64,000 bases of DNA from positions 124,001-188,000 of the forward strand of contig VYBN01000034.1 of NCBI GenBank assembly GCA_009844425.1, read 5' to 3'. The DNA comes from Gammaproteobacteria bacterium. GTDB lineage: Bacteria > Pseudomonadota > Gammaproteobacteria > Steroidobacterales > Foliamicaceae. The position numbers and the translations under genes are program-made. The notes under the pieces were generated by a model. It did not search any database. It was not told where the DNA came from and saw only the letters and a list, made by a program, of their open reading frames with translations. The stretch's first letter is position 1; each line of letters begins with the position of its first letter. Positions 7,400-54,826 of the stretch are shown piece after piece.

Positions 7400-7411
7400 C
7401 CGGAAGTCTTC

Positions 7412-8256: not shown

Positions 8257-8290
8257 GGGGTGATTGTAGACCCAATAGCCCCGCAGCCGG

Positions 8291-10213: not shown

Positions 10214-10224
10214 CTTCGGCTGCC

Positions 10225-10728: not shown

Positions 10729-10741
10729 CCGCACCGCCGTA

Positions 10742-10847: not shown

Positions 10848-10874
10848 GGAATCAAAGCCCAATGCGTCCATGGA

Positions 10875-12944: not shown

Positions 12945-13083
12945 ATTCGGGCAGACTTTCTACACTAAAGCCGCGTATTTCGCAATCCGCCGGCCCGGTT
13001 TCTGTCGGGCGCCGTAGTCGATTGGTCCCTGCAACACCTATACTTCACGCACTGAACAACAGGCCGTATCGGGAAGCCTTCCG

Positions 13084-33796: not shown

Positions 33797-34348
33797 GTGT
33801 TCAACAATCCATTCGACTCATTTCACAAGACCGTTGGCAAGGCCAAGAAAGAGCGCGAACGACTCGACCGGCTGCTGACCATTTCCACGCCGGGAGAACT
33901 TGCGCTGGTGGGGGTCACGGCCGTGGTGTTGCTCCTGTTCGCTGCGTGGCTGTTGTTCGGCAATGTGGCCCGCAGCGTTACGGTTGAAGGAGTGCTTGTA
34001 GAGTCCGGCGAGCAATATCCGGGGGAAAGTCCGTCTCTGCACGCAGTGGTGTGGCTCGAAAGAGGCCTGGGGCGCCAGATCGAGCCGGGCATGCCGGTTT
34101 CTCTGGAAGCCGGGGTCGCCGATGGGCAGGCACGCAGTCATGAGGGCCTGGTATCGGGTCTCTCTGCCGTGGGGCCGGGCGGCGTGGCGGTGCTATTTGA
34201 GTCGGTGGCGCCGGTCACCATGCATCGCCTGGATGTCGCCCTCGGCCGGGGCCAGGAATTCCCTGCCAATGATGGGTCGGCATGCCGGATCGTGATTGAA
34301 CTCGGCAGTCAATCGCCGCTCGCATTTTTCCTGCGGAGGCAATCCTGA
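33797..34348 (+). CDS. Short HlyD-like adaptor of the NHLM secretion system
   Basis: This 183-residue protein resembles the ends of NHLM-type membrane-fusion proteins: a cytosolic start (ERLDRLLTISTPGELALVGV), one membrane helix, then barrel-sandwich strands (GVLVESGEQ) and a C-terminal CRIVIELGSQSPLAFF. The usual central coiled-coil hairpin of about 200 residues is absent. It is placed directly before the two NHLM ABC transporter genes, where the full-length adaptor normally stands. GTG start. It may only gate the ABC pump and not reach an outer-membrane channel. Confidence 0.7.
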   Translation: MFNNPFDSFHKTVGKAKKERERLDRLLTISTPGELALVGVTAVVLLLFAAWLLFGNVARSVTVEGVLVESGEQYPGESPSLHAVVWLERGLGRQIEPGMPVSLEAGVADGQARSHEGLVSGLSAVGPGGVAVLFESVAPVTMHRLDVALGRGQEFPANDGSACRIVIELGSQSPLAFFLRRQS

Positions 34349-36617: not shown

Positions 36618-39542
36618 ATGCCCCGCACGCAATACACATCCATCGCGGAACTCGCCGCCCGGTCCGGCCAATCCGTGCCCTGCGCCGGCAACATGCCGGT
36701 GAAGCTTGACGACCCGGACAGCGTCTGGTTCATCGATCAGGGCGCCGTCGATCTGTTCCTGATTGAATTCAAGGACGGTGTGGAGCAGACGGCGCCGCAG
36801 CATCTTTTGCGCGCGGAGGCCGGCGGCTTTCTGCCGGGCGTCGCGCCGGATGAGGACGACACGACATTCAGCCTGATCGCGAAGGGATTGCCCGGTACGT
36901 TCCTGAAGCGGCTGCCGGCGAGCATGCTCTCCAGGTTGGACCCGGCCGAACTGGCCGAACAGACCGATGCCTGGCTGAGCGGCGTTACCGACACGCTGTT
37001 CCGTTATGCAACCCACAGTCCGCGCCCCGATGCGCTGGTCGAACCGGATCAGACACGAACCCTGGGCCCGGGGACGGTGTCCGTCAGGCGTGGAGTCGTA
37101 TGGGTATCCCGGCCGCCCGCAGGCGCCAGCCTTTTCATGGACCTGATCGACTGTTCCGAACTCAGCGGGGCAGGCAGTCCGCAGGAAGCCGTGATTCCTC
37201 TGACTCAAACCGGCTGGCTCACCCTGTCCGACGCCGCGGCGCTTTCCGCCAGGTCGTCCGAGACGCTTGCGGCGGAAGGCGCGCTGCTTCCGGCGCTGGC
37301 TTCCTTTCACGTCGTTGCCTTTGCCCTCGAGCGGCTCAACCGCCGGCTCGCGGTAGTCGACAGCGCGAATCTGGAACGCGCGCGGACAAGCAGCCGCCGC
37401 GTGGCCGAGGAAGTCGCCCGGCGCCGGCTGTTCAATATCTATGACCTGCCGGACGATCGGGGCGCGGTCGCGGACGATACGGCTCTTGCGGATGCCGTGA
37501 AGATCGTCGGCCGCCGCGAGGGCATCGAATTCAGGATTCCGGCGCGCTCCGGACCCTTCGATTCACCGGTCGGACTGGCCGATATCCTGGATGCCTCCGG
37601 CGTGCGTGCCCGGCGGGTGCGATTGAGCGCAGAGGACAAATGGTGGCGGGGCGACAGCAATGCGATGCTGGCCTTCCGGGCCGAGGACGGCCGTCCCGTC
37701 GCGCTGCTGCCGGGAGCGTTCGGGCGCTACCGGGAAATCGACCCGATCAGCAAGCGCAGCAGCAGGGTAACGGCGGAGCGCGCGGGCGCACTGCGGGACG
37801 ACGCGTGGATGTTCTATCCGCCCTTGCCCCCGGGCAGCGCGGAACCGGCCGATCTTTTCCGCATCGGTGTGCGAGGATCGGGCGCCGATCTGGTGCGGCT
37901 GGTTTTGGCGGGGCTGCCGGGCGGTCTGATCAAGCTGGCGCCGGCGTTGGCTCTCGGCTTCGTCGCGAACCATATCGTCCGGGGCGGAAGTCCCGGCGCG
38001 CTCTACGCGGTGGCCCTGGCGCTGGCGGGTCTGGGCCTGCTCGGCGCACTGCTGCACCTGCTTCAGGGTACGGCGATGATGCGGCTGGAGAATCGCTCGT
38101 CGTCGCGGATCGAGGCCGCCTTCTGGGACCGCCTTCTGCGGCTGCCCCGAAGCGTTTTGCGCCGCTACCCGGCCGGCGATCTGGCCATGTCGGGGATGAC
38201 CTTCCAGAATCTGCGCGACGGATTGCAGGGAGCGCTCGCGGACAGCGTGCTGTCGCTCATTTTCCTGCTCCCCGTTTTTGGCGTGATTTTCTTTTACGAC
38301 GCAACGCTCGGAATCATCGCCCTGGCCTTCAGCCTGACGTCGCTGCTGGTAACGGTAGCGCTCGGATCGGGCCAGGTTTCATCCCACGGCCGCATGGCCG
38401 GCGCAGTACGCCGCGCAACCGGGAACCTTTTCCAGATCATCAAGGGGATCGCCAAGCTGCGTGTCGAGAACGCGGAAGGGTCGGCTTTCGCCATGTCCGC
38501 CAGGGATTATCGCGAGCAAAAGCGCGCGGAGTACGATTTGGGCACGATGCAGGGGCATTTGCAGGCCTTCGGCGCCGCGCTCCCCTTCCTTGCGGGCGCG
38601 GCACTGATTATTGCGGTGGCGACGACCGGCGACCGGACTGTCCCAGTCAGCGATTTTCTCGTCGTTTACACAGTGTTCATTGCCTATCAGGCCGCCGTTG
38701 CCCGGCTCGGCGAGTCATTCGGCGTGATTGCCGGCATGCGGCCGGCGTTCGACCACATGCGCCCCCTGCTCGCCGCGGCTCCCGAGACCGCGGTCGAGGG
38801 CGAGCCGGTCGAATACCTGGCCGGGGAGGTTCTGTTCGACCATATCTCCTTCCGCTACGATCCCGACGGCCCGCTGATTCTCGACGATGTCACGATACGC
38901 GCCCGTCCCGGAGAGTTCGTCGCCATTGCCGGCGAATCCGGGGCCGGCAAGAGCACGCTGTTCCGGCTTGCGCTGGGCGTGGACCAGCCATCCTCCGGAT
39001 CGGTCTATTACGACGGACGCGACCTGCGGCGCCTGAACCTGAAACAGCTGCGCCGGAAAATAGGCGTGGTCCCCCAGTCGGTGCAACTTCATCCCCAGGA
39101 CCTCTGGGACAATATCGTCGCCCACCACGACGAAGCGTCCACCGAGGAAGCCTGGCAGGCGGCCCAGACCGCCGAAATCGAGCGCGAGATCAAGTCAATG
39201 CCCATGGGCATGATGACGCTGGTCGGCACCAGCGGCGCAGTCCTTTCAGGCGGGGAGAGTCAGCGCATCACGATCGCGCGCGCGCTGATGCGCGGACCCC
39301 GGATTCTGCTGCTGGACGAAGCGACCAACTGGCTCGACAACGAGAGTCAGGCCCAGGTCATGCAGAACCTGGCCGTGCTGACCTCGACTCGGATTGTCAT
39401 CGCCCACCGCCTCTCGACGCTGGAACATGCCGACCGCATCTACGTGCTGCAGGCCGGCAAGGTCGTGCAAAGCGGCGCCTTCGGGGAACTCATGGAGGTG
39501 GAAGGCGTATTCCGGGACCTGGTCAAGAGGCAGATCGCTTAA
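36618..39542 (+). CDS. NHLM-type ABC transporter, second subunit with large N-terminal domain
   Basis: This 974-residue protein has a long N-terminal region without catalytic motifs (about 420 residues; the NHLM permease/ATPase family has this region) and a membrane domain. Its ABC domain is complete: Walker A AGESGAGKSTLFRL, signature LSGGESQRITIARAL and Walker B ILLLDEATNWLD. It lacks a C39 peptidase and should pair with the preceding transporter as a heterodimer. The gene begins five bases after the preceding stop. Confidence 0.9.
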   Translation: MPRTQYTSIAELAARSGQSVPCAGNMPVKLDDPDSVWFIDQGAVDLFLIEFKDGVEQTAPQHLLRAEAGGFLPGVAPDEDDTTFSLIAKGLPGTFLKRLPASMLSRLDPAELAEQTDAWLSGVTDTLFRYATHSPRPDALVEPDQTRTLGPGTVSVRRGVVWVSRPPAGASLFMDLIDCSELSGAGSPQEAVIPLTQTGWLTLSDAAALSARSSETLAAEGALLPALASFHVVAFALERLNRRLAVVDSANLERARTSSRRVAEEVARRRLFNIYDLPDDRGAVADDTALADAVKIVGRREGIEFRIPARSGPFDSPVGLADILDASGVRARRVRLSAEDKWWRGDSNAMLAFRAEDGRPVALLPGAFGRYREIDPISKRSSRVTAERAGALRDDAWMFYPPLPPGSAEPADLFRIGVRGSGADLVRLVLAGLPGGLIKLAPALALGFVANHIVRGGSPGALYAVALALAGLGLLGALLHLLQGTAMMRLENRSSSRIEAAFWDRLLRLPRSVLRRYPAGDLAMSGMTFQNLRDGLQGALADSVLSLIFLLPVFGVIFFYDATLGIIALAFSLTSLLVTVALGSGQVSSHGRMAGAVRRATGNLFQIIKGIAKLRVENAEGSAFAMSARDYREQKRAEYDLGTMQGHLQAFGAALPFLAGAALIIAVATTGDRTVPVSDFLVVYTVFIAYQAAVARLGESFGVIAGMRPAFDHMRPLLAAAPETAVEGEPVEYLAGEVLFDHISFRYDPDGPLILDDVTIRARPGEFVAIAGESGAGKSTLFRLALGVDQPSSGSVYYDGRDLRRLNLKQLRRKIGVVPQSVQLHPQDLWDNIVAHHDEASTEEAWQAAQTAEIEREIKSMPMGMMTLVGTSGAVLSGGESQRITIARALMRGPRILLLDEATNWLDNESQAQVMQNLAVLTSTRIVIAHRLSTLEHADRIYVLQAGKVVQSGAFGELMEVEGVFRDLVKRQIA

Positions 39543-39552: not shown

Positions 39553-40854
39553 TTGAAGAAACCCCTCAACGCAGCGAAATATCTCGTCGCAAAGGCCGGT
39601 TCCGACGGCCCGTTTCGCCAACGCCTGCTGGCGGCGCCGAAAGAAACGATCGAAACGGAGCTGGGCGTGACGATGGCCGACGGCCATGAGATACATGTTC
39701 ACGAAAATTCGGACACCGTCACGCATCTCGTCCTTCCGCCGCCGAGCAGGCTCAGCGAGGAAGAGCGCGAAGCGGCTAGGACCGGCGTGGCGTCGCTCGA
39801 GTATCTCCGGCAGACCATGTACGACCCGGCACCCGACATTCGTCCGCCGGCCGGACAGCCGGCAACGGCCCCGCGCGGCTCCCTTGCGCCCGGGGCGCTT
39901 GCGACGGCGGGCAGGGAGAGCATTCGCCGCGGCCTTGCGTTCCTGGATTCCGCAGTGGACGCAAATGGCGCCTGGCACTGCATCCGGTTCAGCACGGCAG
40001 ATCCGGACATTCCGCGGCATTTCGAAAGGCCGGCTTTCGTTTCCGCCTTCTGTGCACTGGCCCTCGAAAGTTGCGGGGAGGCGGTGGCCCGGGCCATCCG
40101 CAGCCGCACGAGGCAGTATCTGGTCGACACCATTGAATACCCGGGATTGTGGCGCTATTACCGTCATCTGCCCCGGGACCTTGACAGCTCCGCACTCTGT
40201 TCGCTGGTAATCGCGGAGCACCCTTGGATTGTTCTGGGAAGGAACGTTTCCCGAATGCTGGCCAACCGCGACGAACAGGGACGTTTCCTGACCTGGTTGC
40301 TGGAGGAAGGAGAACCTGATGTCGTTTCGCGCTTTCGCATCGAAGCCGACCCCGTAGTCAATGCGAATGTCATCGCCTGCCTGGGCGACCATCCCGAAAC
40401 CAGGGACGCTCAAGCCTGGCTGACAGACCTGATCGCCGAGGGCCGCGTCGAAGGTTCGTCCAAGTGGTACCCCGACGCGGTCGCGACCTACTATGCAACC
40501 ACCCGGGCCATGATTCGCGCGCGGCCTGCTTTCGAGGGCCTGCGTCCGGTACTGGCTGACGCCATCCTGGGCTTGCGCGACGGCGCCGACGGGTTCGGCA
40601 ACGTCCTGCAGACCGCTCAGGCGGTGTCGGCGCTCCACAACATCGGATGCCTTGAAGAAGCGAATGTGAGACGCCTGGCGGAAAGGTTGATCGGATCGCA
40701 GCACGAGGACGGCAGCTGGCCGGAACTGCTGGCGTTTGGCGACCAGACGTTGAGGTGGGGCACGGTAGGGCAGATAGGACATGGCTCCGAGGCCATGACC
40801 ACCGCGTTTTGCATCGAAGCATTGGAGCGCCTGATCGAAATCCTGGCCGGATGA
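39553..40854 (+). CDS. NHLP leader fused to a terpene-cyclase-like alpha/alpha toroid
   Basis: This 433-residue protein is a fusion. Residues about 8-75 match the nitrile-hydratase-like leader seen in the two precursors (FRQRLLAAPKETIETELGV, then EIHVHENSDTVTHLVLPPP). After a proline-rich linker, residues about 110-433 resemble prenyltransferase/squalene-hopene cyclase repeats, with DLDSSALCSLVIAE in the place of the class II cyclase DxDD motif and QHEDGSWPELLAFGD as a QW-like repeat. Start must be TTG 39553; there is no nearby ATG. It could be an enzyme tethered by a leader, or a protein routed to the exporter. The function is unknown. Confidence 0.72.
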   Translation: MKKPLNAAKYLVAKAGSDGPFRQRLLAAPKETIETELGVTMADGHEIHVHENSDTVTHLVLPPPSRLSEEEREAARTGVASLEYLRQTMYDPAPDIRPPAGQPATAPRGSLAPGALATAGRESIRRGLAFLDSAVDANGAWHCIRFSTADPDIPRHFERPAFVSAFCALALESCGEAVARAIRSRTRQYLVDTIEYPGLWRYYRHLPRDLDSSALCSLVIAEHPWIVLGRNVSRMLANRDEQGRFLTWLLEEGEPDVVSRFRIEADPVVNANVIACLGDHPETRDAQAWLTDLIAEGRVEGSSKWYPDAVATYYATTRAMIRARPAFEGLRPVLADAILGLRDGADGFGNVLQTAQAVSALHNIGCLEEANVRRLAERLIGSQHEDGSWPELLAFGDQTLRWGTVGQIGHGSEAMTTAFCIEALERLIEILAG

Positions 40855-40933: not shown

Positions 40934-42976
40934 ATGCCGCAGGAAACAGCCGCAAGCGGGGGCTTTGGGCCACACAATGCCGATGTCTCAAGGCTGATCG
41001 AGCCTTCGATCCGAACGGCCCTGCCGCACTATCTGCCGCTGGGCGTATTTCCCCTGATTCTCGCCGCGGCGGCCTATGGAGGCTGGTGGTTGTTGCCGCC
41101 GTTTCTGTTCTTTGCCGCCGCCACGCCGCTCGATCGGGCGTTGGGTCTCGACGGACGCAACATGGATCCGGCCAAAGCGCCGGGTCGCCGCCTGATCTGG
41201 CACAACCTGCCGGTCTGGTGCTGGGCGTTTCTTTGGCCTGTCACTCTGGTTTTCGGCCTGTGGCAGATTCTGGTTGCGAATCCGTTTGCAATCTGGGAGA
41301 ACGTGATACTGGCGATCATCCTGACGATGGAGGCGCAGGCGGTCTTCATTGTCGGTCACGAACTGGTTCACAGGCGCACTCCCTGGGAAAGACGGTGGGG
41401 CGAATTCCTGCTTGCCTCGGCTTCCTATCCGCAATACGCCACGGAACACGTCTACATCCACCATGCGCAGGTGGGCACGCCGCACGACATGGGATCCGCG
41501 CCTAAGGGCGAGAGTTTCTGGAGTTATTTTCCGAAGGAAATCGTAAGCAACCTCACCAATTCGTGGAAAATGGCAAGCCAGCTCCTGGCGCGCCGCCGAC
41601 TGCCCGTCTGGCACTACAGCAATCCGTTCTGGCGCTACGGCATCTATGTCGCATTCTGGTACGGACTTGTGTTCTGGATGGGCGGAATCTGGGCGGTCCT
41701 GGTCTTCCTCTTCCTCGGTTTCTGCTGCGTGTTCTCGATGAAGATCAGCAATTACCTGCAACACTACGGTCTTCGCCGGGTCCTTCTTCCGAACGGCCGC
41801 TGGGAAAAGGTGGCGCCGCGCCATTCGTGGAGCGCCGACTGGAAGTTCAGCAACTGGATGTTCTTCAACATGCAGCGCCACGCGGACCATCATGCGCTGG
41901 CCAGCCGCCCCTATCCGCTGCTGCAGATCACCGGGGCGGACGAATCGCCGTTCCTGCCGGGCACCTACAGCGACCTGATGAACATCGTGCTGCGGCCGAA
42001 GCGCTGGTTCGAGAAGATGGATCCGCTGGTGGATCAATGGCGCAAGCACTTCTACCCCGAAATTGACGACTGGAGCGCGTACGACAGCCCCGTTGCCGCG
42101 GCACGGCCCGAGCATCTGAGCGCAATCATTGAAATCTTCGGGTCCGCCCCGCGGCTGGCGCGATGGATCGAACGCAACCCCGAACTGCTGGACAATCTCA
42201 AGGATCCGGAATTCACCGATCTCGACCTGCCCAGGGGGTTCATGTCGGATCCGGATGTCGAATCGATCGCGCGGCGCGGGCTGGCGCGAGTGTATTGGAC
42301 TTTCGAGATGAGCGTCGAGGAAATGAAGGGCCTGATGGCCGAGATTCCGGCGACCGATGCGAAAGACACCGCGGAAGTGGTGCGTAACTGGTCGAACGAC
42401 AAGGCATTTCAGATCGGAATGCACGTGGTGCGCGGAAACCTGTCTGCGGACGAGGCCAGGACCGCCTTGTCCAATCTGGCCGAAGCCTCGATCGCCACCG
42501 TGCTGGCCTCGGTGGTCGCGGATTTTGTGGACCGGCGCGGGCCCGTGAGTGAAGGTGGGGCCGCCGCGATACTACTGGGCGATCTCGCCGGCCGGGAGGC
42601 TCATCCGGGCGTAGCGGCCGATTTCCTGTTTGTGCATGACGGCCCCGGCGACGGCGGGCGGCTATGCGCGCTGTTTCTCGACAAGCTGACCGGTCTGTCG
42701 CAGAACAGCCTGTTGTTCTCCCCGGTCCCGCACGGAACGGAGCGCTGTGTCGTGTTGCCGTCAAGTGAGCTGGCCGAGCATTGCAGGAATGTCGGCCCGG
42801 CCGGGAGTGCCGACCTCGCCACGGCGCGCTGCGTGTTCGAGACCGGCGATTCCAGGATAGGGGCCCGCTTCGACGAAGTGCGGCGCGCCGTCCTGTCCGA
42901 ATGGGGCGCGCCGCCGGCAGCGGAGAACGCACCCGACGCCGAAGCGGAACTCAATGCCTTTCTCACGCGCGCCTGA
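40934..42976 (+). CDS. AlkB-type di-iron monooxygenase fused to a degenerate GlnE-like domain
   Basis: This 680-residue protein has two parts. Residues 1 to about 380 form an alkane-monooxygenase-type membrane domain with the histidine boxes GHELVHRR (about 142), HVYIHHAQVG (about 172), NYLQHYGLRR (about 272) and QRHADHHA (about 313). Residues about 395-660 resemble the adenylyltransferase domain of GlnE (RNPELLDNL, then LSNLAEASIATVLASVVADF and GDLAGREAHPGVAADFLFVH). The GlnE active-site pattern GSDIDL is replaced by GVAADF, so the metal-binding acids are largely lost. It may bind nucleotide or partner rather than catalyse. It probably hydroxylates or desaturates the cluster product. Confidence 0.8.
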   Translation: MPQETAASGGFGPHNADVSRLIEPSIRTALPHYLPLGVFPLILAAAAYGGWWLLPPFLFFAAATPLDRALGLDGRNMDPAKAPGRRLIWHNLPVWCWAFLWPVTLVFGLWQILVANPFAIWENVILAIILTMEAQAVFIVGHELVHRRTPWERRWGEFLLASASYPQYATEHVYIHHAQVGTPHDMGSAPKGESFWSYFPKEIVSNLTNSWKMASQLLARRRLPVWHYSNPFWRYGIYVAFWYGLVFWMGGIWAVLVFLFLGFCCVFSMKISNYLQHYGLRRVLLPNGRWEKVAPRHSWSADWKFSNWMFFNMQRHADHHALASRPYPLLQITGADESPFLPGTYSDLMNIVLRPKRWFEKMDPLVDQWRKHFYPEIDDWSAYDSPVAAARPEHLSAIIEIFGSAPRLARWIERNPELLDNLKDPEFTDLDLPRGFMSDPDVESIARRGLARVYWTFEMSVEEMKGLMAEIPATDAKDTAEVVRNWSNDKAFQIGMHVVRGNLSADEARTALSNLAEASIATVLASVVADFVDRRGPVSEGGAAAILLGDLAGREAHPGVAADFLFVHDGPGDGGRLCALFLDKLTGLSQNSLLFSPVPHGTERCVVLPSSELAEHCRNVGPAGSADLATARCVFETGDSRIGARFDEVRRAVLSEWGAPPAAENAPDAEAELNAFLTRA

Positions 42977-43030
42977 GGGCGTCCGTTGGTCCGGGCCCGA
43001 ACGGTAACGAATCCTCAGCGCGGAACACGG

Positions 43031-45307
43031 ATGAAGACGACGGCTGCCGACCGGGGCATCGTCAAGCTGCCCGCGCTTGCGCCGCACCTGGAATTTCACG
43101 TCATCGGCGAACAGCAGACCCTGCTGGTATCGGAGTCGTTCAATACGCTACTGCACGGTGAAATCTATTGCAAGTTGCTGCCCGTGCTAGATGGCCGGCG
43201 CGAGCAGGAAGAGATTGCCGCCGTCCTCGAGGCCGGACACACTGCCTCCGAAGTTCGCGCGGCCATTGCTTCACTTGCCGCCAGGGGCTACGTAGTCTCC
43301 GGCGGGCATGGAATGGACAGGAGCCGGGCGGCCTACTGGTCGTCCCTCGGCGCCTCGCCGTGCCGGGCGGAGCAAAGCCTGACGGAATCGGGAATCGAAA
43401 TTGTGGGTGACGAGGGCCGTCTGGCACGGCATATGGAAGAACTCGGCGTCACCGCAGGGACCGCCGCGCCGAAGCTTACCGTGATTGTTTGCGACGAATA
43501 TCTGCAGGAGCGCCTTGCGGAGGTGAATCGACACCGGCTTGAAACAGGTGCGCCGTGGATGCTGATGCGCCCCCGGGGCATACAGCCGCTGTTCGGTCCC
43601 GTCTTTCGGGCGGATGGAGAAGGACCCTGCTGGGCCTGCCTGGCCTACCGGCTTGGCGGTCACCAGGAAGTGCATCAGTTTCTCAGGAATGTCGTGGGCG
43701 AGAAGGCCGCCTTCAAACCGTTTGCCGCCGACCCCGTGCTGCTGGATTCGCTGTACGGGCTGATTGCGGCCGAGATCGTCAAATGGCTGGTGCTCGGCGA
43801 GGCGGCGCCGTTGCACGAACAGGCGATGACGATGGACATCGGAACGTTCACGAGCTCGCGGCACCGCGTCATGCGCCGGCCGCAGTGCCCGGCCTGCGGC
43901 GACGAAGACCTTTTCCGTGCGGACCGCCCGCCCGTGGCCTTGCGTCTGAAGTCCAGCCCCAGGGCCGTCAGCAACAGCGGTGGCGCGCGCACCGTGGCCC
44001 CGGAAGTCACGCTGGCGAAATACCGCCACCTGGTGAGCCCGATCAGTGGCGTCGTGACCTGGCTGAAGCGCACTACCGACGAGTCCGATTCCTGGCTGCA
44101 TGTCTATTGGGCGGGAAGCAATCTCGGCATGAGGAGCCGGACCTTGAGTTCGCTCCGGCGCAGCCTGCGCAGCAAGAGCGCCGGCAAGGGCAGCACGCGC
44201 GAGCAGTCGGAGGTCAGCGCGCTGTGCGAAGCCCTCGAGCGATATTCGGGCTGCTTACATGGAGACGAGATCCGCGCCCGCAGGCGCTTCACCGATTTCG
44301 CCGCCGATGGAGAGGCCATCCACCCCAACGATGCGCAGCTCTTCAGCGACACTCAGCTTGACAACGCCGAGAGCATCAACGCGAAGGGGCACCCGTACAA
44401 CATCGTGCCTCCGCGTATGGATCCCGACGCCGAACTTGACTGGACGCCCGTATGGTCGTTCACGCAGCAGCGCCATCGCTATCTGCCGACCTCCATGCTC
44501 TACAGCATGGCGCCCGAGCAGCGCGCCACCGGCGACCTGATTGCCGATTCCAACGGCTGCGCCGCCGGCAACACGCTGGAGGAGGCCATACTGCAGGGCT
44601 TCTACGAACTGGCCGAGCGCGACGCTTTCGCCATCTGGTGGTACAACAGGCTCAAGGCGCCGGCGGTGGATCTGACCAGTTTCGACGACGAGTATCTCGC
44701 GACGGCCGCGGGCTACTACGCGCGGTTCGAGCGGGACCTGTGGATGCTCGACGTGACCTCCGATATCGGAATTCCCGCATTCGTCGCACTGTCGCGACGG
44801 CCGGACGCGGAAACCGAGGACATCATCTACGGGGCCGGCGCCCATGCCGACCCGCGTATTGCGGCCCTGCGCGCGGTTTGCGAATTGAACCAGTGCCTTA
44901 CCTGGCTGCCGCGCCCCGGAAGCCGCGACGGCCGGCCCATGATCGACGATCCGCTGGCGCTCTGGTGGTGGAAGACCGCCCGGCTGGCCGATTGTTCCTG
45001 GCTGGCGCCGGCGGAAGACGCGCCGCTGCGCAAGGCTTCGCATTACAAGGTGATCGAGACGGCCGACATGCGCGAGGATGTGGAATACTGCCGGACGCGA
45101 GTCGAGGCCGGAGGCATGGAGTTCCTGGTCCTGGACCAGACGCGGCCCGACATCGGCATGCCCGTGGTGCGCGTCGTCGTGCCGGGCCTGCGCCATTTCT
45201 GGGAACGACTCGCTCCGGGGCGCTTGTATGACGTGCCGGTCAGCATGGGCCGCCGCAGCCGCCCGCTGGCCGAAGCCGACATCAATCCCGTACCGGTGAT
45301 CGCCTGA
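43031..45307 (+). CDS. Fused cyclodehydratase: E1-like partner plus YcaO domain
   Basis: This 758-residue protein joins the C and D components of azoline-forming RiPP synthases. Residues 1-90 form a winged-helix-like recognition element (LLPVLDGRREQEEIAAVLEA). Residues 90-300 are a ThiF/E1-like region with two zinc-binding CxxC pairs (CWACLAY near 200, CPACGDED near 285). Residues about 370-758 are YcaO, with ATP-site motifs SALCEALERYSG (near 395), SNGCAAGNT and ELAERDAFAIWW. The C-terminus ends NPVPVIA rather than a full PxPxP. The ATG at 43031 is preferred over an upstream TTG. It should cyclise core cysteines to thiazolines. Confidence 0.92.
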   Translation: MKTTAADRGIVKLPALAPHLEFHVIGEQQTLLVSESFNTLLHGEIYCKLLPVLDGRREQEEIAAVLEAGHTASEVRAAIASLAARGYVVSGGHGMDRSRAAYWSSLGASPCRAEQSLTESGIEIVGDEGRLARHMEELGVTAGTAAPKLTVIVCDEYLQERLAEVNRHRLETGAPWMLMRPRGIQPLFGPVFRADGEGPCWACLAYRLGGHQEVHQFLRNVVGEKAAFKPFAADPVLLDSLYGLIAAEIVKWLVLGEAAPLHEQAMTMDIGTFTSSRHRVMRRPQCPACGDEDLFRADRPPVALRLKSSPRAVSNSGGARTVAPEVTLAKYRHLVSPISGVVTWLKRTTDESDSWLHVYWAGSNLGMRSRTLSSLRRSLRSKSAGKGSTREQSEVSALCEALERYSGCLHGDEIRARRRFTDFAADGEAIHPNDAQLFSDTQLDNAESINAKGHPYNIVPPRMDPDAELDWTPVWSFTQQRHRYLPTSMLYSMAPEQRATGDLIADSNGCAAGNTLEEAILQGFYELAERDAFAIWWYNRLKAPAVDLTSFDDEYLATAAGYYARFERDLWMLDVTSDIGIPAFVALSRRPDAETEDIIYGAGAHADPRIAALRAVCELNQCLTWLPRPGSRDGRPMIDDPLALWWWKTARLADCSWLAPAEDAPLRKASHYKVIETADMREDVEYCRTRVEAGGMEFLVLDQTRPDIGMPVVRVVVPGLRHFWERLAPGRLYDVPVSMGRRSRPLAEADINPVPVIA

Positions 45308-45316: not shown

Positions 45317-46432
45317 GTGGACATTGACGAAGCAATAACGCGGACCCAGGACCGGCTTGCGGAAGAGGGCGGCACCATGGCCGATTTGCTCGGGCACCTG
45401 AGAAACAGGATTTCGAACGTCCTTATCGGGGACCGGGAATGGCAGCGGGTGCTGGAATGCGCCGGGAGACTTCCGATAACGATGGCCGCCCTGCCGTTCG
45501 GCTTCGAACTGCCGCTGCACGAGCGCAGGCCGGAAGCGGATTTCGGCGCCTCGCTCGCAAGCGGAACCCGGGCGGGGTCCTGGTTCGAAGAACTTGCGCG
45601 GGGCGAAGAAACGGATGAAACGGCGAGAGCGGTCGTGCGCCTGTTCAGGGAAATGGAATCCGAAGGCTCGCCGCTGCGTGAAATCGTCGGGCGCAAGCTG
45701 ATGCTGGAATACGACATAGGCTCGGCGCGCGGTAACGAGCATGCGCAACCCGGCATCTTCCTGCGTCCCGGCGAGCGTCCGATCGTGGGCGGGGACCAGT
45801 TGCGCGATGTGGCCACGGTTGTTGACGCGCTCGTTTCCTGCGTGGGCTGGGAGATGAACGAGGCTCAGCGGAAGAGCCTCGAACGGGTTTACCGGGCGCA
45901 GCCCGAAGACACGCGAATGGATTCCTTCGGGGTGTTTCCCTCCCGCTCACGCGCGGTCCGCCTGGCGATCATGGGCTTCAAGTCGCAGCGGGAAATATGT
46001 TCCTTTCTTCAGGACTCGGGCTGGCCGGGCCGGATTTCGGCCGTGGAGTCCGTGATTGCACGCTTCAGGGAACGTGCGAACATCGTCCGGTCGGGAGCGA
46101 ATATCGACGTTGAGGAAGATGGCGTGGGCCCTGCGCTCGGTCTAACGCTCATCGTCAAGCAGAGATATACGAAAGATGCGCGCTACTGGCTCGACGGGCT
46201 TACGGATTGGGACCCGTTTCTGGAAGCCCTCGGCCATGAGGATCTGGTAGTCGCGGAAAAGCTCGGTGCGCTTGCCGGCTGGGTGTCCAAACCCTCCATG
46301 CTGTTCGGAAAGACCGGGCGTTACGTACTGTTACGGGGCATTCACCACATCAAGCTGGTCATTTCCGGGAACCAGCTTCGCAAGGCCAAGGCTTACGTGT
46401 TCATGGTGCTGTCCGCAGAGGTATCGAAATAA
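45317..46432 (+). CDS. Unassigned protein of the peptide cluster
   Basis: This 371-residue protein starts at GTG with a good GAGGAG site eight bases upstream, ten bases after the YcaO stop, so it is part of the operon. I do not recognise a domain. It has no signal peptide and looks soluble and mostly helical, with a conserved-looking central block (ERPIVGGDQLRDVATVVDAL) and a beta-rich end (GRYVLLRGIHHIKLVISG). A SagB-type dehydrogenase would show FMN-binding motifs, and none are visible. It may be a scaffold, a tailoring enzyme or an immunity protein. Confidence 0.6.
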   Translation: MDIDEAITRTQDRLAEEGGTMADLLGHLRNRISNVLIGDREWQRVLECAGRLPITMAALPFGFELPLHERRPEADFGASLASGTRAGSWFEELARGEETDETARAVVRLFREMESEGSPLREIVGRKLMLEYDIGSARGNEHAQPGIFLRPGERPIVGGDQLRDVATVVDALVSCVGWEMNEAQRKSLERVYRAQPEDTRMDSFGVFPSRSRAVRLAIMGFKSQREICSFLQDSGWPGRISAVESVIARFRERANIVRSGANIDVEEDGVGPALGLTLIVKQRYTKDARYWLDGLTDWDPFLEALGHEDLVVAEKLGALAGWVSKPSMLFGKTGRYVLLRGIHHIKLVISGNQLRKAKAYVFMVLSAEVSK

Positions 46433-46682: not shown

Positions 46683-46719
46683 AAAAAACCCCCGTTCGTC
46701 TTGAACGGGGGTTTGTTTT
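46683..46719. terminator. Bidirectional intrinsic terminator
   Basis: Twelve-base perfect arms AAACCCCCGTTC (46686-46697) and GAACGGGGGTTT (46703-46714) flank a five-base loop, with an A-run on the left and T-run on the right. It stands between the end of the long rightward operon and the end of the leftward precursor gene and can stop both transcripts. Confidence 0.88.
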
Positions 46720-46753: not shown

Positions 46754-47005
46754 TTACCAGCAGCAGCAGAGGCCGGCTGAGATGGCCTCGAGTTGCTCTT
46801 CGGTAATGTTTGGATCAGGAGGCAATGCGAGATGCACGGTCTGCATGTCGCTCTCATGAACCTGGATTGTCATCGAATCAGGAATCGAGATATCCAATTC
46901 CTTGCTGATGGTGCTTTTGGGATCTGCCAACAACTGTTGCCGGAATTCCGCGTCCAGAGCGGATTTCTCGACGATCTGCTGCAGCATCTGTTCTCCACTT
47001 CTCAT
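46754..47005 (-). CDS. NHLP-leader precursor peptide 1, core LCCCW
   Basis: This 83-residue peptide starts with a nitrile-hydratase-alpha-like leader (FRQQLLADPKSTISKELDI, then IQVHESDMQTVHLALPPDPN). It ends EEQLEAISAG followed by LCCCW. The Ala-Gly before the last five residues is the expected C39 cleavage point, giving an exceptionally short core with three consecutive cysteines and a terminal tryptophan. The leader is strongly similar to precursor 2 at 49416, and EEQLEAISAG is identical. A G-rich site (ACGGGGG) about eight bases upstream of the ATG may serve as ribosome binding site. It is a substrate candidate for YcaO and the halogenase. Confidence 0.9.
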   Translation of the reverse strand: MRSGEQMLQQIVEKSALDAEFRQQLLADPKSTISKELDISIPDSMTIQVHESDMQTVHLALPPDPNITEEQLEAISAGLCCCW

Positions 47006-47190
47006 AGTAAACCCCCGTCTTATTGAGTTGCTTCAGAGGCCTTCGCCGCGTTTCCCGTTAAAGAATCGCAGCGTTGGTGAAGTTCATTGTAACAGACCAT
47101 GCCGTACAATATTCGCTGCGCGTTTTGCAGTCGGGGCGATGCCGTGGATCACAGCAAATTCAGCCGGACCGCACTTTGACGCGTGCGCTG

Positions 47191-48420
47191 ATGCGATTCC
47201 GCGGCGTCTGTGCGGCTCTCGCGCTCATGGTTCCATGGGGCGCCGCTGCGCAGACTCTTGATTTTTCCGGCGACCTGAGCCTGCAGACCCGCTGGTTTCC
47301 CGAAACGCCGGCCTTCGCGGGCCAGCGTGCGGGAAGCGGCGGCGTGGTCGTCGAGCCCACGCTTTACTGGGACATCACGGAAACCGCCAGCTTTACCTTT
47401 ACCCCGCTTTACCGCTACGACAGCGCCGATTCGCGACGCACTCATGCGGACCTGCGCGAGGCCTACCTGCTGATGTACGGGGACTGGGGCGACACCGCCT
47501 GGGAGCTTCGCCTGGGAGTTGACCGCGTGTTCTGGGGCGTGGTCGAGCTGCACAACCTCGTGGACGTCGTCAATCAGTTCGACCTGATCGAGCACCCGCG
47601 CGAAGAAGCCAAACTGGGTCAGCCCATGGCGTACCTGACGCTCTCCGGCGGCTGGGGCATGGCGGAGTGGCTGGTGCTGCCCTATCACCGCAAGCGCACG
47701 TTTCCGGGGTCTCACGGACGCTTCCGGGGCCCTGTGCCGCTTGTTGACGACGCCTTGTACGAAAGTGGCGGCGAAGAGCGCCACATCGATCTGGCCGCCC
47801 GTTACAGCAACACTGTCGGGCTGCTGGACTTTGGCCTGAGCGCCTTCGTAGGAACCAATCGTGAGCCCTTTTTCGTTCCGGCCCTCCCGCCCGGCCTGAT
47901 TCCCGGCCCGGACACACCCTTTATTCCCTACTACGAACAGATCCGGCAATTCGGCCTGGACGCGCAACTCACGACCGGGGACTGGATCTACAAGCTGGAA
48001 GCGATTCGCCGCAGCGGCGCCCGCAACCTCGCAGGCCTGGAGGAGAACTACCGCGCCTTCATTCTCGGCCTGGAGCGCAATTTCTACGGAGTCTTCGGCT
48101 CCGCGGCGGACGTCATCGCGTTTGCGGAATGGCACGATGACAGTCGCGGTTCGCTGGCAACGACCGCGTGGGCCAATGACCTGTTTGTCGGGGCCTCGGT
48201 CGCTTTGAACGACGTGCAGAGTACCGAATTCATTGTCGGCGTCCTGAGTGATTTGAGCCGCGATTACCGCGCATTGAACGTGGGAATGAATCGCCGCCTG
48301 ACGGACAACTGGTCGATGCGCCTGGAAGTGATCGCGCAATTGCGGGTGGATCCGCTGGATATGACTTACGCGGGACGGCGAGACAGTTTCGTGGGGCTGG
48401 ATATCACCTACAGCTACTGA
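47191..48420 (+). CDS. Outer-membrane beta-barrel protein
   Basis: This 409-residue protein has a signal peptide (MRFRGVCAALALMVPWGAAA) and then alternating strands typical of barrels (FTFTPLYRYDSADS; MRLEVIAQLRVDPLD). It ends in an aromatic residue (DITYSY), as barrel proteins recognised by BAM do. ATG 47191 or an in-frame TTG five codons upstream could start it. The family is not one I can name; comparable barrels accompany RND exporters and LolA-like proteins, both present downstream. It may form an outer-membrane exit or act in lipid transport. Confidence 0.68.
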   Translation: MRFRGVCAALALMVPWGAAAQTLDFSGDLSLQTRWFPETPAFAGQRAGSGGVVVEPTLYWDITETASFTFTPLYRYDSADSRRTHADLREAYLLMYGDWGDTAWELRLGVDRVFWGVVELHNLVDVVNQFDLIEHPREEAKLGQPMAYLTLSGGWGMAEWLVLPYHRKRTFPGSHGRFRGPVPLVDDALYESGGEERHIDLAARYSNTVGLLDFGLSAFVGTNREPFFVPALPPGLIPGPDTPFIPYYEQIRQFGLDAQLTTGDWIYKLEAIRRSGARNLAGLEENYRAFILGLERNFYGVFGSAADVIAFAEWHDDSRGSLATTAWANDLFVGASVALNDVQSTEFIVGVLSDLSRDYRALNVGMNRRLTDNWSMRLEVIAQLRVDPLDMTYAGRRDSFVGLDITYSY

Positions 48421-49298
48421 TGGTTTCGGGGATGCTGATCGAGCGCCTCAAGGCGTACGGCGGGCTGATCCGCCTGGATCGTCCGGCAGGCACCCTGCTC
48501 TTGCTGTGGCCCACGCTGTTCGCCCTGTGGCTGGCTTCCGGCGGCGATCCGCCGGCCCGCATCCTGCTTGTATTTGTTGCGGGCACTTTCCTGATGCGCT
48601 CGGCCGGCTGCGCGGTGAACGACTACGCCGACCGCCGCGTGGACCGCCTGGTAAAGCGCACCCGCTCGCGGCCGCTGGCGACAGGAGCGATCAGGCCCGC
48701 GGAGGCCCTTGCAGTGGCCGGCCTGCTGACTGCCGGCGCAGCCTGGCTGGTTTTCAGCCTGCCGCCGCTGGTGATCGGGCTGGCGGTGATCGGCGCGGCT
48801 GTCGCCGGTTTCTATCCCTTCGCGAAGCGGATCATGCCGGCCCCCCAACTGGTATTGGGCGTGGCGTTTTCGTGGGGCGTTCCGATGGCGTACGCCGCCG
48901 TTTCGGATCTCGGCCATCCCTCCCTGTGGATGCTGTGGCCGCTGACTTTCCTGTGGGTGGTGATTTACGACACCATTTACGCCATGGTGGATCGGGATGA
49001 CGATGAGCGGATCGGAGTGCCGTCAACGGCGATCCTCCTGGGCCGGCACGATGTGCTGTTCATCGTCGTGGCGCATGCGGCGTACCTGGTCGGCATGTTC
49101 GGACTGGGATCGGCGGCCGGCCTTGGGCCGGCTTACTTCGCGGGCGTAGCCGGGGCGGCGCTGTGCGCAGGCCGGCAGATCGCGCTGGTTCGAGGCAGGG
49201 ACCGCAAGCAGTGCTTTCGCGCCTTCAACAACAATTCGCTGCTCGGCTTCCTTCTCTTTGCCGGACTGGCGCTGGACATGCTCTTCGCCGCAGGTTGA
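48420..49298 (+). CDS. ubiA: UbiA-family 4-hydroxybenzoate polyprenyltransferase
   Basis: This 292-residue membrane enzyme attaches a polyprenyl chain to an aromatic acceptor. The two aspartate-rich motifs are intact: NDYADRRVDRLVKRT and DTIYAMVDRDDDE. Length, about nine helices and the motif RLDRPAGTLLLLWPT fit the ubiquinone enzyme UbiA. The ATG at 48420 overlaps the preceding stop (TGATG); ATG 48432 is also possible. It sits inside the peptide region but most likely serves ubiquinone synthesis. Confidence 0.88.
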   Translation: MVSGMLIERLKAYGGLIRLDRPAGTLLLLWPTLFALWLASGGDPPARILLVFVAGTFLMRSAGCAVNDYADRRVDRLVKRTRSRPLATGAIRPAEALAVAGLLTAGAAWLVFSLPPLVIGLAVIGAAVAGFYPFAKRIMPAPQLVLGVAFSWGVPMAYAAVSDLGHPSLWMLWPLTFLWVVIYDTIYAMVDRDDDERIGVPSTAILLGRHDVLFIVVAHAAYLVGMFGLGSAAGLGPAYFAGVAGAALCAGRQIALVRGRDRKQCFRAFNNNSLLGFLLFAGLALDMLFAAG

Positions 49299-49331
49299 CG
49301 AGGTGTTCCCCGGGATGCGATACGGGGCATT

Positions 49332-49405
49332 CTTTGTGATACGATCAGAACGTCTGGTTGGACTTGCGGTAAATACAAGCGGGGCGTGGAGCCGTGATCA
49401 CAAAG
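49332..49405. promoter_or_regulatory. Long-range inverted repeat upstream of precursor 2
   Basis: CTTTGTGAT at 49332-49340 and ATCACAAAG at 49397-49405 are perfect nine-base inverted repeats separated by 56 bases. The right arm ends ten bases before the start ATG and touches the ribosome binding region. It could be a regulator site or an RNA hairpin controlling precursor synthesis. Chance is not excluded. Confidence 0.35.
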
Positions 49406-49415
49406 GCAGACAGGC

Positions 49416-49670
49416 ATGTTGTCCGCTGAGGACATGCAGCGCCATCTTATTCAGAGGGCGGCTGACGATAGCGATTTCCGCAGGGGACTCATAGCGGACC
49501 CCAAGGGCACGCTGTACCAGGAATTCGGCATCGAGATTCCGGACCATATTGAGTTTCACGTGCACCAAAGCGACATGCGCACCGTGCATGTCGTTCTGCC
49601 GCCCGACCCGGTGCTGGACGAGGAGCAACTCGAGGCGATTTCGGCCGGCATGTGCTGCTGCGGAATCTGA
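49416..49670 (+). CDS. NHLP-leader precursor peptide 2, core MCCCGI
   Basis: This 84-residue peptide has the same leader type as precursor 1 (FRRGLIADPKGTLYQEFGI, then FHVHQSDMRTVHVVLPPDPV), ending EEQLEAISAG and then MCCCGI. It shares the three-cysteine block but replaces tryptophan with Gly-Ile. The start ATG is followed immediately by an acidic helix (LSAEDMQRHL). The last 19 bases overlap the GTG start of a TPR protein gene. It is the second likely substrate of the YcaO enzyme and C39 exporter. Confidence 0.9.
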   Translation: MLSAEDMQRHLIQRAADDSDFRRGLIADPKGTLYQEFGIEIPDHIEFHVHQSDMRTVHVVLPPDPVLDEEQLEAISAGMCCCGI

Positions 49671-51707: not shown

Positions 51708-54002
51708 ATGAATCCGGCGCTCCTCGACCGGTACATCGCCGCGGTCCTGCGCTACCGCTGGCTGGTTGTTGCCGCCGCCACCCTGGTCATGCTGGCGATG
51801 GCGGCCGGCGGGCGGTTCATTACGGTTTCCAACGACCATCGGATCCTGTTCGGCGAGGACAACCCGCAACTCGCCGCCTACGACGCCCTCGAGGACACCT
51901 ACACGTCGTCGAATACGGCGCTTATCGCCGTGTCGCCCAGGCAGGGCAACGTATTCACCCGCGAGACGCTCGGCGTTATCGAGAGGATGACGGAAGAGGC
52001 CTGGCAGGCGCCCTATTCGAGCCGCGTTGACTCGCTGACCAACTACAGCCACAGCGAGGCGCTGGGCGATGACCTGATCGTCGGCCCATTGGTGGAGGAC
52101 GCCGCTTCGCTGAGCGACGCCGACCTGGACCGGATCGAGGAAATCGCGAACGATTCCATTGAGCTCGTCGGCCGCATGCTGGCCGAGGACGGCAGAGTGG
52201 CCGGCCTGGCCATCAATTTCATACCGCCCAGGGAGACCCATGACGCTTCGGTCGTGGAACTCAACGCTTACCTCGACGAAATGATGGCCCGGGCGCGCGC
52301 CGAGAGCCCGGAGATCGACTTCCATATCACCGGCGACATCGTGATGCAGCGCGCGTTTGCGCAGGCCACCCAGGACGACCTGGAGAGACTGACTCCGATC
52401 GTGTTCTTCCTGATCGTCGCCGTGGCCTACCTGATCCTGCGTTCGATATCGGGCGCCCTGAGCATGGTCGTGATGATCCTGTTCTCGGTGGGCACGGCGA
52501 TGGGTCTGGCGGGGTGGAATCAGACGGTCTTCAGCCCCGTGAACGCCGGAGTGCCGATCATCGTCATGGCGATAACGGTTGCCCAGTCGGTGCATATCAC
52601 CACGATGACCCTGACGGCCATGCGCCGGGGACTGGACAGGATGGAGGCAGTTGCCGAATCGGTGCGCGTGAACGCCTTCCCGGTCTTTTTGGCTTCGCTC
52701 ACGACCGTGATCGGGTTCCTGAGCCTGAATGCCTCCGACTCCCCGCCGTTTCACACGCTCGGAAACTACGTCGCCTTCGGCGTGGCCTGCACCTTCGTCT
52801 ATTCCATGTCGCTGCTGCCGGCCCTGCTTTCCATCCTGCCCCTGCGCGTGAAACCGTCGTATGCCGGAGAAGTGACTTTCTTCGACCGCTTCGGAGAGTT
52901 CGTGGTCGCGCGGCGGAAACCGCTGCTGTGGCTGACCACGATTCCGACGCTGTTGCTGCTGGCCGGCATTTTTCGCATCGAGCTCAACGACAGCCTGCCC
53001 AACTACTTCGACGAGCGCTATGAATTCCGGCGGGATTCGGACTACATCATCGAAAACCTGACCGGGCTTGAGTCGCAGGAGTATTCGCTGGCCTCCCCGG
53101 GCGAGGGCGGAATTACCAACCCCGAATACCTTCGCCAGATCGACGCCTTCGCCGAGTGGTGCCGCAGCCAGCCGGAAGTGACCTATGTGCGCGTTTTTTC
53201 GGACACGATGAAGCGCCTGAACAAGAACATGCACGAGGACGATCCGGCCTACTACCGGTTGCCGGAGGATCAGGCGCTGGCCACGCAGTACCTCCTGCTG
53301 TACGAGCTTTCCCTGCCGTTCGGAATGGACCTGAACGACCGCATTGACATCAGCAAGTCGTCCACCCGCATGTCGGTGGTCATGCGGGACATCACCAGCA
53401 ACGAGCAGCAACTACTCGCGGAGCGGGCCCGCGGCTGGCTTGCCGAGAATGCCCCCGGCCTTACCACGGAAGCGACCGGCCTCAGCGTCATCGTCTCGCA
53501 CATCACGGAGCGAAACATCAAGTCCATGCTGCGCGGCACCGTAATCGCGATGGCGCTGATTTCGCTGGTCCTGGTCGTGGTTTTCAAGAGCCTGAGGTTC
53601 GGACTGCTGAGCCTGATCCCCAACTTCATCCCCGCCGGCATGAGCTTCGGCCTGTGGGGGTACCTGGTCGGCAGAGTGGGGATCGCGGCTTCGGTGGTGA
53701 CGGTCGTGGCCTTCGGCATCATCGTGGACGACACGATTCACTTTCTGACGAAATACCTGAAGATTCGCCGCGAGGGCCGTTCCGCCGCCGACGCGGTCCG
53801 TTATGCGTTCAGCACCGTGGGCAAGGCCCTGGGAACGACGACCGCGGTATTGTCGGCCGGGTTCCTGGTGTTCGCCGCATCCGGATTCGAAGTCAGTTGG
53901 GCGCTCGGAATACTGGTGGCCATGACGATCATGTTCGCATTCCTCGCCGACTTCCTGCTTCTGCCACCCCTGCTGATGGCATTTGATCGGAGAAAACTAT
54001 GA
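51708..54002 (+). CDS. RND/MMPL-family exporter (copy 2)
   Basis: This 764-residue inner-membrane protein of about twelve helices is similar throughout to the exporter at 31418: the periplasmic opening reads VSNDHRILFGEDNPQLAAYD, and YVAFGVACTFVYSMSLLPAL and VDDTIHFLTKYLKIR match the other copy's blocks. It is followed by a LolA-like gene overlapping by four bases (ATGA), a layout common for RND exporters handling lipids. The duplication suggests two related cargoes or two steps of one route. Confidence 0.86.
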   Translation: MNPALLDRYIAAVLRYRWLVVAAATLVMLAMAAGGRFITVSNDHRILFGEDNPQLAAYDALEDTYTSSNTALIAVSPRQGNVFTRETLGVIERMTEEAWQAPYSSRVDSLTNYSHSEALGDDLIVGPLVEDAASLSDADLDRIEEIANDSIELVGRMLAEDGRVAGLAINFIPPRETHDASVVELNAYLDEMMARARAESPEIDFHITGDIVMQRAFAQATQDDLERLTPIVFFLIVAVAYLILRSISGALSMVVMILFSVGTAMGLAGWNQTVFSPVNAGVPIIVMAITVAQSVHITTMTLTAMRRGLDRMEAVAESVRVNAFPVFLASLTTVIGFLSLNASDSPPFHTLGNYVAFGVACTFVYSMSLLPALLSILPLRVKPSYAGEVTFFDRFGEFVVARRKPLLWLTTIPTLLLLAGIFRIELNDSLPNYFDERYEFRRDSDYIIENLTGLESQEYSLASPGEGGITNPEYLRQIDAFAEWCRSQPEVTYVRVFSDTMKRLNKNMHEDDPAYYRLPEDQALATQYLLLYELSLPFGMDLNDRIDISKSSTRMSVVMRDITSNEQQLLAERARGWLAENAPGLTTEATGLSVIVSHITERNIKSMLRGTVIAMALISLVLVVVFKSLRFGLLSLIPNFIPAGMSFGLWGYLVGRVGIAASVVTVVAFGIIVDDTIHFLTKYLKIRREGRSAADAVRYAFSTVGKALGTTTAVLSAGFLVFAASGFEVSWALGILVAMTIMFAFLADFLLLPPLLMAFDRRKL

Positions 54003-54826
54003 ATCGTGAGCCAAGCCGGGCACGCACCTTCCATGCTTCGGCCCGTATCAATCTCATGCTGGCGCTGGCGGGCCTGGTGTCGTCGCCCGCCCTCGCGCAG
54101 GATCCCTCGCCGGAGGAAATCGGTCTTGCGATCGCGTACGAGGCGGCGGCCCGTAACGACGGTTTCGGTAATTTCACTGCCAACCTGACCATGGTTCTGC
54201 GCAACCGGCAGGGTCAGGAGAGCCGCCGCCAGATCCGCTTCAAGGTGCTGGAAGTCGAGGACGACGGCGACAAAAGCCTGTTCGTTTTCGATCAGCCGCG
54301 CGACGTTCAGGGAACGGCCCTGCTGACCCACGGTCACCTCACGGCCCAGGACGACCAGTGGCTCTATCTGCCGGCGTTGAAGCGGGTCAAACGCATCAGT
54401 TCCTCGACCCGCACCGGGTCCTTCATGGGAAGCGAGTTCTCCTACGAGGACATGAGCAACCCGGAAGTCGAAAAATACACTTACCGTTACCTGCGCGAGG
54501 AGCCCTGCGGCGATTTGATCTGCACGGTCAACGAACAGGTGCCGGTGGACACGAAATCGAGCTACAGCCGCCAACTGGTGTGGCAGGACAAGGAGCACCT
54601 GCGCACCTGGCTGGTCCACTACTACGACCGCAAGAACTCACATCTGAAGACGCTGGTTTTCGCGGGATACCGGCAGTACCTGGATCGATACTGGCGGGCC
54701 GGCGAAATGACGATGGAGAATCATCTGACCGGCAAGAGCACGGTGCTCAACTGGACGGACCTGGAGTTCGGCACGGATCTGGGCGACGGCGATTTCTCCC
54801 AGGCGGCGTTGCGGCGCGTGCGCTGA
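53999..54826 (+). CDS. LolA-superfamily outer-membrane lipoprotein-sorting-like protein
   Basis: This 275-residue protein has a signal peptide ending near PALAQ and a LolA/LppX-like beta-barrel half (NLTMVLRNRQGQESRRQIRF; GTALLTHGHLTAQDDQWLYL; LKTLVFAGYRQYLDRYWRAG). It belongs to the COG2834-type family encoded beside RND/MMPL exporters. It likely carries a hydrophobic molecule through the periplasm from the exporter. The overlap with the RND stop indicates co-translation. Confidence 0.82.
   Translation: MNREPSRARTFHASARINLMLALAGLVSSPALAQDPSPEEIGLAIAYEAAARNDGFGNFTANLTMVLRNRQGQESRRQIRFKVLEVEDDGDKSLFVFDQPRDVQGTALLTHGHLTAQDDQWLYLPALKRVKRISSSTRTGSFMGSEFSYEDMSNPEVEKYTYRYLREEPCGDLICTVNEQVPVDTKSSYSRQLVWQDKEHLRTWLVHYYDRKNSHLKTLVFAGYRQYLDRYWRAGEMTMENHLTGKSTVLNWTDLEFGTDLGDGDFSQAALRRVR

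Follow-up and report, generated by a model that had tools for sequence, protein, structure and literature searches.

Background

Among the closest described systems are the proteusin clusters named srp, known from sponge microbiomes (Nguyen et al. 2021, as described in the available parts of PMC10858898 and PMC10286304); the core of their precursor SrpE is LCCCW. According to the first of these two citing papers, SrpC cyclodehydrates the three core cysteines to thiazolines and SrpI brominates the C-terminal tryptophan (PMC10858898). Here we analyse a cluster of this kind in a stretch of 64,000 nucleotides, below called the window (assembly GCA_009844425.1, contig VYBN01000034.1, positions 124,001 to 188,000 of the forward strand), from a gammaproteobacterium of the family Foliamicaceae. 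The window very probably encodes srp orthologues that would perform thiazoline formation and bromination. It also contains a second precursor without tryptophan and candidate terpenoid genes; a connection of the latter with the peptide is plausible and is proposed tentatively.

The available descriptions give SrpE residues 66-72 as NLTEEQL and, for SrpI, Lys84 and the loop P105, Q106, Q107, V108, S109 (PMC10858898); Tyr102 and Tyr110 of SrpI are named, and the core LCCCW is repeated, in PMC10286304. The leader motif L(X)4L is needed by SrpI (PMC10858898) and, in published work, by MprC. As far as they are described there, MprE and MprC of a methanotroph are like the window in combining a YcaO protein with NHLP leaders that carry L(X)4L. 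The Mpr system has the azoline oxidase MprD, whereas no SagB-type enzyme was found in the window genome. In NctPC, an ABBA prenyltransferase and an MstE-like terpene cyclase form a single fused enzyme that geranylgeranylates tryptophan and then cyclises the chain (available parts of PMC13290415, citing Hubrich et al. 2024). In the window, by contrast, the predicted counterparts are separate genes, the cyclase instead carries an NHLP leader, and azolines and bromination would be added.

Precursors and srp genes

The precursors, the candidate modifying enzymes shared with srp and the exporter pair are located in the window as follows:

29829-31103, minus strand: SrpI-type tryptophan halogenase, putative brominase (PF04820, 1.5e-47; GTG start at 31103).
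34406-36613, plus strand: NHLM ABC1 with C39 peptidase, permease and ATPase (TIGR03796, 857.7 bits against a cut-off of 853.3).
36618-39542, plus strand: NHLM ABC2 permease/ATPase (TIGR03797, 677 bits, below the cut-off of 709.4).
43031-45307, plus strand: fused YcaO cyclodehydratase, SrpC-like (TIGR03882, 139.9 bits, and TIGR03604, 275.4 bits, both above cut-off).
46754-47005, minus strand: very probable SrpE orthologue, NHLP leader and core LCCCW (83 aa; TIGR03793, 66 bits).
49416-49670, plus strand: second precursor, NHLP leader and core MCCCGI, no tryptophan (84 aa; TIGR03793, 66 bits).

The 83-residue precursor ends in EEQLEAISAGLCCCW and the 84-residue one in EEQLEAISAGMCCCGI. They have 45 identical residues in common and are therefore paralogues. 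Both leaders score above the curated cut-off of the leader_NHLP family (50.9 bits; E 2e-18 for each) and are followed by the AG doublet and then by LCCCW or MCCCGI. Thus the two precursors ending in SAG-LCCCW and SAG-MCCCGI, which a first-pass annotation made from the letters alone had proposed, are confirmed. So is its fused YcaO protein with an NHLM exporter pair nearby, with the reservation that ABC2 scores below its cut-off. The YcaO protein is a TOMM cyclodehydratase with the leader-binding and YcaO domains in a single chain; its reading frame is open from 42986 (42986-45307), and the start codon is not settled.

The comparison with SrpE and SrpI was made on the published core and residue numbers, not on full sequences. 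Residues 66-72 of the window leader are NITEEQL, against NLTEEQL at the same positions of SrpE. Counted from the GTG at 31103, the halogenase has K84, Y102, P105, Q106, E107, V108, S109 and Y110, so that among the SrpI residues compared position 107 alone differs (E in the window, Q in SrpI). The core LCCCW is identical, and the leader motif position, the halogenase residues and the YcaO protein agree with the published descriptions of srp. Because of the core and the matching SrpE and SrpI positions, we assign the window cluster to srp. The precursor at 46754-47005 is SrpE-like in having both the leader and LCCCW, and the MCCCGI precursor is not; relative to srp, as described in the citing papers, the window adds this second precursor without tryptophan. 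The LCCCW precursor is already published. The earlier observation was real, and its main point is not new.

By orthology with the published homologue, thiazolines would be expected on the LCCCW core. The short azoline cores of the first-pass annotation are supported in the same way, LCCCW being the SrpE core described with three thiazolines. The proposal of thiazolines rather than thiazoles gained support, because no SagB-type dehydrogenase (TIGR03605) was matched at E ≤ 0.001 in the genome, which is 94% complete; the same search matched 8 of 14 control genomes. The computed masses are 626.20 for LCCCW and 572.17 after loss of three waters, in agreement with the earlier values of 626.2 and 572.2, and 628.18 and 574.15 for MCCCGI. 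Cleavage after AG by the C39 peptidase of the NHLM exporter, also part of the earlier proposal, is a likely step.

Candidate terpenoid genes

Three further genes lie between the exporter genes and the LCCCW precursor:

39553-40854, plus strand: NHLP leader fused to a predicted class II terpene cyclase (the start is probably the TTG at 39553).
40934-42976, plus strand: AlkB-type membrane hydroxylase with a long C-terminal extension (PF00487, 1.1e-26).
45317-46432, plus strand: p371, predicted ABBA-fold prenyltransferase (no Pfam match).

Relatives were collected by scanning genome contigs with the window YcaO protein. This yielded 186 loci, of which the best 80 were analysed; L numbers denote loci and G numbers genomes, G000 being the genome of the window.

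In the predicted structure of p371, the order of strands and helices is that of a ten-strand barrel of repeated beta-beta-alpha-alpha units, the ABBA fold. Foldseek and VIA matches span most of the chain with moderate TM-scores (0.40-0.55), and those listed are mostly aromatic, often indole, prenyltransferases. Residues R210, R215, K315, K346 and Y360 are invariant in 14 aligned rows including distant paralogues, an invariance of the rows and not of a superposed active site. Hence p371 is predicted from its modelled fold to be an ABBA-fold prenyltransferase. It is the gene immediately downstream of YcaO in 71 of the 80 loci. In locus L155 (G004:C37, 11594-13917), there are two tandem p371 paralogues with 40% and 36% identity to that of the window, and the cores are LCCCGV and RCCC.

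The leader-fused cyclase occurs in 64 of the 80 examined stretches, those with partial flanks included. The motif DLDS is present in all 65 rows of fused proteins and is aligned to DLDTT of bacterial drimenol synthase (AsDMS 9m7f; 9mhs), with Ser in place of the first Thr. This is a motif of the DxDD/DxDT type with the catalytic middle Asp; from fold and motif, the protein is predicted to be a class II terpene cyclase. Where the window cyclase has its NHLP leader, drimenol synthase has a haloacid-dehalogenase-type region, by its PDB name. At the second Leu of the docking motif L(X)4L, all 75 precursors have L or M, where all 65 fused proteins have R or K. Where cleavage would normally take place, 11 of these 65 show an AG or GG doublet, and at most 13 can have one (two rows extend beyond the letters listed). 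Judging from these rows, the fused leader has retained its folded part and lost the L(X)4L motif, which suggests a docking or scaffolding role.

This third NHLP leader and the halogenase at 29829-31103 were overlooked in the first-pass annotation, as were three NHLP matches on another contig of the same genome; its two precursors stand. The latter contig holds a second NHLM cluster (locus L007, G000:C14:112000-131000, positions 3000-13500). The three NHLP matches, one of them below cut-off, end in GGFAPTNDSY, GGGCVN and GGIGDIDTW, and the cluster also includes a tryptophan-halogenase-like gene with 24% identity to the window halogenase, as well as two distant paralogues of p371. The window YcaO protein has no match within the L007 stretch read. 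In locus L158 (G071:C140, 3298-11231), a GGIAPTDDSY-type precursor and an ABC pair occur with a leaderless terpene cyclase adjoining a p371 paralogue.

The AlkB-type hydroxylase contains all four expected motifs (HELVHRR, HVYIHH, NYLQHYG, HADHH) of what we take to be the AlkB-type signature, the His boxes HE..H, H...HH and H..HH with an HYG motif. It was matched in 64 of the 80 loci; ten of these matches (52-55% identity) sit elsewhere and may represent another paralogue.

Cores and cyclase among relatives

Precursors were listed in 72 of the 80 loci, 75 in total. Their cores are LCCCW (64), LSCC[LMV] (5), MCCCGI (2), WCCCGN, LCCCGW, LCCCGI and LCCCGF (one each). LCCCW is therefore not a chance sequence: of the 72 loci whose core was read, 64 have it, in six codon versions. 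In the eight loci without a precursor in the stretch examined, LCCCW was found elsewhere in the genome in all eight cases. A lone LCCCW precursor lies near a contig end in L156 (G040:C5, 9921-10169); other cluster genes were not found in the 15.8 kb read around it. The first-pass annotation had named relatives lacking CCC as a refutation of its proposal. Such relatives exist (LSCC[LMV], 5 of 75 cores), and the remaining 70 cores hold CCC. From these five cores, one ring position is tolerant of Ser.

MCCCGI recurs in loci L008 and L059. It is also present in the genus of the window, in G001, G002, G003, G005, G006 and G007 besides G000, where the locus and genome sets overlap, L059 and G005 being probably one genome. 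G008 has no NHLP match at E ≤ 1e-6. G001 carries LCCCGI in addition, and G004 carries LCCCGV and RCCC. By sequence there are two core classes, one ending in Trp and one without Trp (xCCCG[IVF], LSCC, RCCC), MCCCGI belonging to the latter; in WCCCGN (L010) the Trp stands at the front of the core.

The presence of the leader-fused cyclase follows these classes. Among loci with both 10 kb flanks and a read core, it was found in 39 of 39 with a Trp-ending core and in none of three without Trp. In L029, which also has both 10 kb flanks, the cyclase is present and the precursor is found just beyond the stretch examined. The cyclase is missing from the stretch examined in seven Trp-core loci whose flanks are incomplete, one of them being L011, for which 10 kb upstream are covered. 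At the level of genomes, the cyclase profile matched 17 of the 18 genomes with a Trp-ending CCC core (the exception is G040) and none of the eight with only Trp-less CCC or SCC cores (G001, G004, G058-G063). Fisher's exact test gives p = 5.8e-6, uncorrected for kinship; 15 of these genomes had been picked for a locus without a precursor or with an unusual core, and some are near relatives. The halogenase follows the core classes more loosely. It was matched in seven of the nine Trp-core genomes of the relatives set (partially in G005), with no match in G040 and G050, and had no match in the Trp-less G001 and G004. In G005 only a 126-residue piece of it was matched (G005:C1:1077842-1078219), in a genome with an LCCCW core and the cyclase.

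By the labels of their submitters, the YcaO loci come from seven phyla (Pseudomonadota, Acidobacteriota, Gemmatimonadota, Nitrospirota, Nitrospinota, Latescibacterota, Binatota). Nguyen et al. are said to have reported in 2021 that srp clusters are spread over many taxa of sponge microbiomes. In a tree of YcaO proteins from 78 of the 80 loci and the window, the phyla interleave, with 12 label changes against a minimum possible of 6. This falls short of proving transfer, since bins can include foreign contigs.

Other genes of the region

Further features of the region are:

31418-33769, plus strand: MMPL/RND transporter, an occasional neighbour (PF03176).
33797-34348, plus strand: short NHLM secretion protein of 183 aa, HlyD-like (matched to positions 6-82 of the 421 of model TIGR03794 with E 3.2e-5, which is below cut-off).
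46686-46714, no strand assigned: terminator-like hairpin with a T tail and a 13-pair stem, between the converging p371 and srpE genes.

The number of terminator-like hairpins in the region is not above chance (5 found, 3.6 expected, standard deviation 1.9). The cluster is flanked by MMPL/RND transporters, a DUF1302 protein and a LolA-like protein (window positions 31418-33769, 47197-48420, 51708-54826). Across the 80 loci these neighbours were matched in 17 (MMPL; identity 72-89% except 42% in L008), 11 (DUF1302) and 17 (LolA-like) cases. They might serve the export or handling of a lipid-like product. An MPAB/latex-clearing oxygenase-like protein (PF09995, 50441-51640) lies 3' of the second precursor and was seen in one of the 80 loci, within the stretches examined.

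Discussion

In the pathway that we propose, the NHLP leader of SrpE would bring the core to the fused YcaO protein, which would convert the three cysteines of LCCCW to thiazolines, and the SrpI-type enzyme would brominate the C-terminal tryptophan. Both modifications have been described for the srp homologues and are transferred here by orthology. The ABBA-fold protein p371 would furnish the core with a polyprenyl chain, which the leader-carrying class II cyclase would cyclise on cores ending in Trp; these two steps are suggested by structure prediction and co-occurrence, with NctPC as a precedent. The AlkB-type enzyme may oxidise the prenyl chain, and the C39 domain of the NHLM exporter would cut after AG, followed by export of the product, as family membership suggests. 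MCCCGI would probably use the same YcaO protein and, having no Trp, should be neither brominated nor subject to the Trp-linked step. The product for LCCCW could thus be a peptide-terpenoid hybrid with three thiazolines and 6-bromotryptophan, prenylated and with its chain cyclised by an enzyme docking via an uncleaved copy of the leader. We hold this reading as a tentative one, with a chance somewhat short of even.

Several points weigh against it. We know of no product of an srp-type cluster. L011 has a Trp core and no fused cyclase within 10 kb upstream. G040 has an LCCCW precursor and no match to p371, the cyclase or the halogenase anywhere in the genome, and G050 has LCCCW and the cyclase with no halogenase match. 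The Trp-less lineages may represent two or three events only, and G060, counted as Trp-less, also has a non-CCC NHLP precursor ending in Trp. p371 itself was not found in the examined stretch of four of the 80 loci, and is kept in clusters with Trp-less cores: in G001 (MCCCGI, LCCCGI), in G004 (LCCCGV, RCCC), where it is doubled, and in L052, L058, L064, L072, L073, L085 and L086, the cores concerned including LSCC[LMV] and LCCCG[FI]. Finally, co-expression of srpC and srpE in E. coli gave partial modification only, according to the available part of PMC10286304.

Since p371 is kept in Trp-less clusters, its acceptor may not be Trp. The prenyl group could be carried by a cysteine thiol or another core position, where the Trp-linked cyclase would act on the chain; the partial modification seen with SrpC and its precursor SrpE also favours this. 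However, the fold matches of p371 are mostly aromatic or indole prenyltransferases, though a fold does not fix the acceptor, and p371 of Trp-less clusters is divergent (47% identity in L153 of G001; 40% and 36% in L155). We regard such prenylation as possible, though rather unlikely. Another possibility is that the product of the leader-fused cyclase is a free terpenoid with no connection to the peptide, and that the NHLP domain of the enzyme is no more than a stabilising or targeting tag. The missing second docking Leu (R or K in 65/65, against L or M in 75/75 precursors) and the scarcity of the doublet (at most 13/65) would agree with this. However, the cyclase tracks the Trp-ending cores, NctPC is described as a cyclase and prenyltransferase acting on a peptide Trp (available parts of PMC13290415), and loss of the Leu also fits a docking domain that must escape cutting or modification. 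A free terpenoid seems unlikely.

The simplest reading is that bare LCCCW and MCCCGI tri-thiazolines are exported and that the other enzymes belong to unrelated pathways. The YcaO protein, the precursors and the exporter are the obvious core set, and we know of no experimental work on either p371 or the fused cyclase. However, SrpI is described as brominating the LCCCW core (available parts of PMC10858898; PMC10286304), p371 directly follows YcaO in 71/80 loci, and the cyclase, found in 64/80 stretches, shares the leader domain of the precursor and tracks Trp-ending cores. This makes export of the bare peptides quite improbable. It also makes doubtful the end products of the first-pass annotation, LCCCW and MCCCGI minus three waters, which were proposed with the SrpI-type brominase, the ABBA-fold gene, the leader-fused cyclase and the AlkB-type hydroxylase overlooked. 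By general chemistry, three adjacent free cysteines could bind soft metals in a thiol peptide. However, a conserved TOMM-type YcaO gene adjoins, the SrpE cysteines are described as cyclodehydrated (available parts of PMC10858898; PMC10286304), and Ser in place of one Cys in five LSCC cores suits cyclodehydration better; a metal-binding peptide is hardly credible.

To return to the hybrid, a leader domain used as an enzyme docking module rather than as a substrate tag would be new in the biosynthesis of ribosomally synthesised and post-translationally modified peptides, as far as our literature searches reach; at the level of search listings, no report of an NHLP-terpene cyclase fusion was found. 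For the LCCCW product, 572.17 is probably the wrong mass target, the finished product being probably heavier. If p371 and the cyclase act on the core, the neutral masses before oxidation would be 854.27 (C15) or 922.33 (C20), with 79Br. With such brominated, terpenoid-bearing masses as targets, existing sponge data could be searched for the srp end product.

The precursor claim adds a member to a known family and not a new kind. What gives the finding its value is the second core class, together with the terpenoid machinery, for which a link to the peptide is plausible, if tentative. The Trp-less class is a natural comparison to the Trp-ending one. If the hybrid is real, the cluster would represent a terpenoid-peptide pathway that is widely shared in sponge microbiomes.

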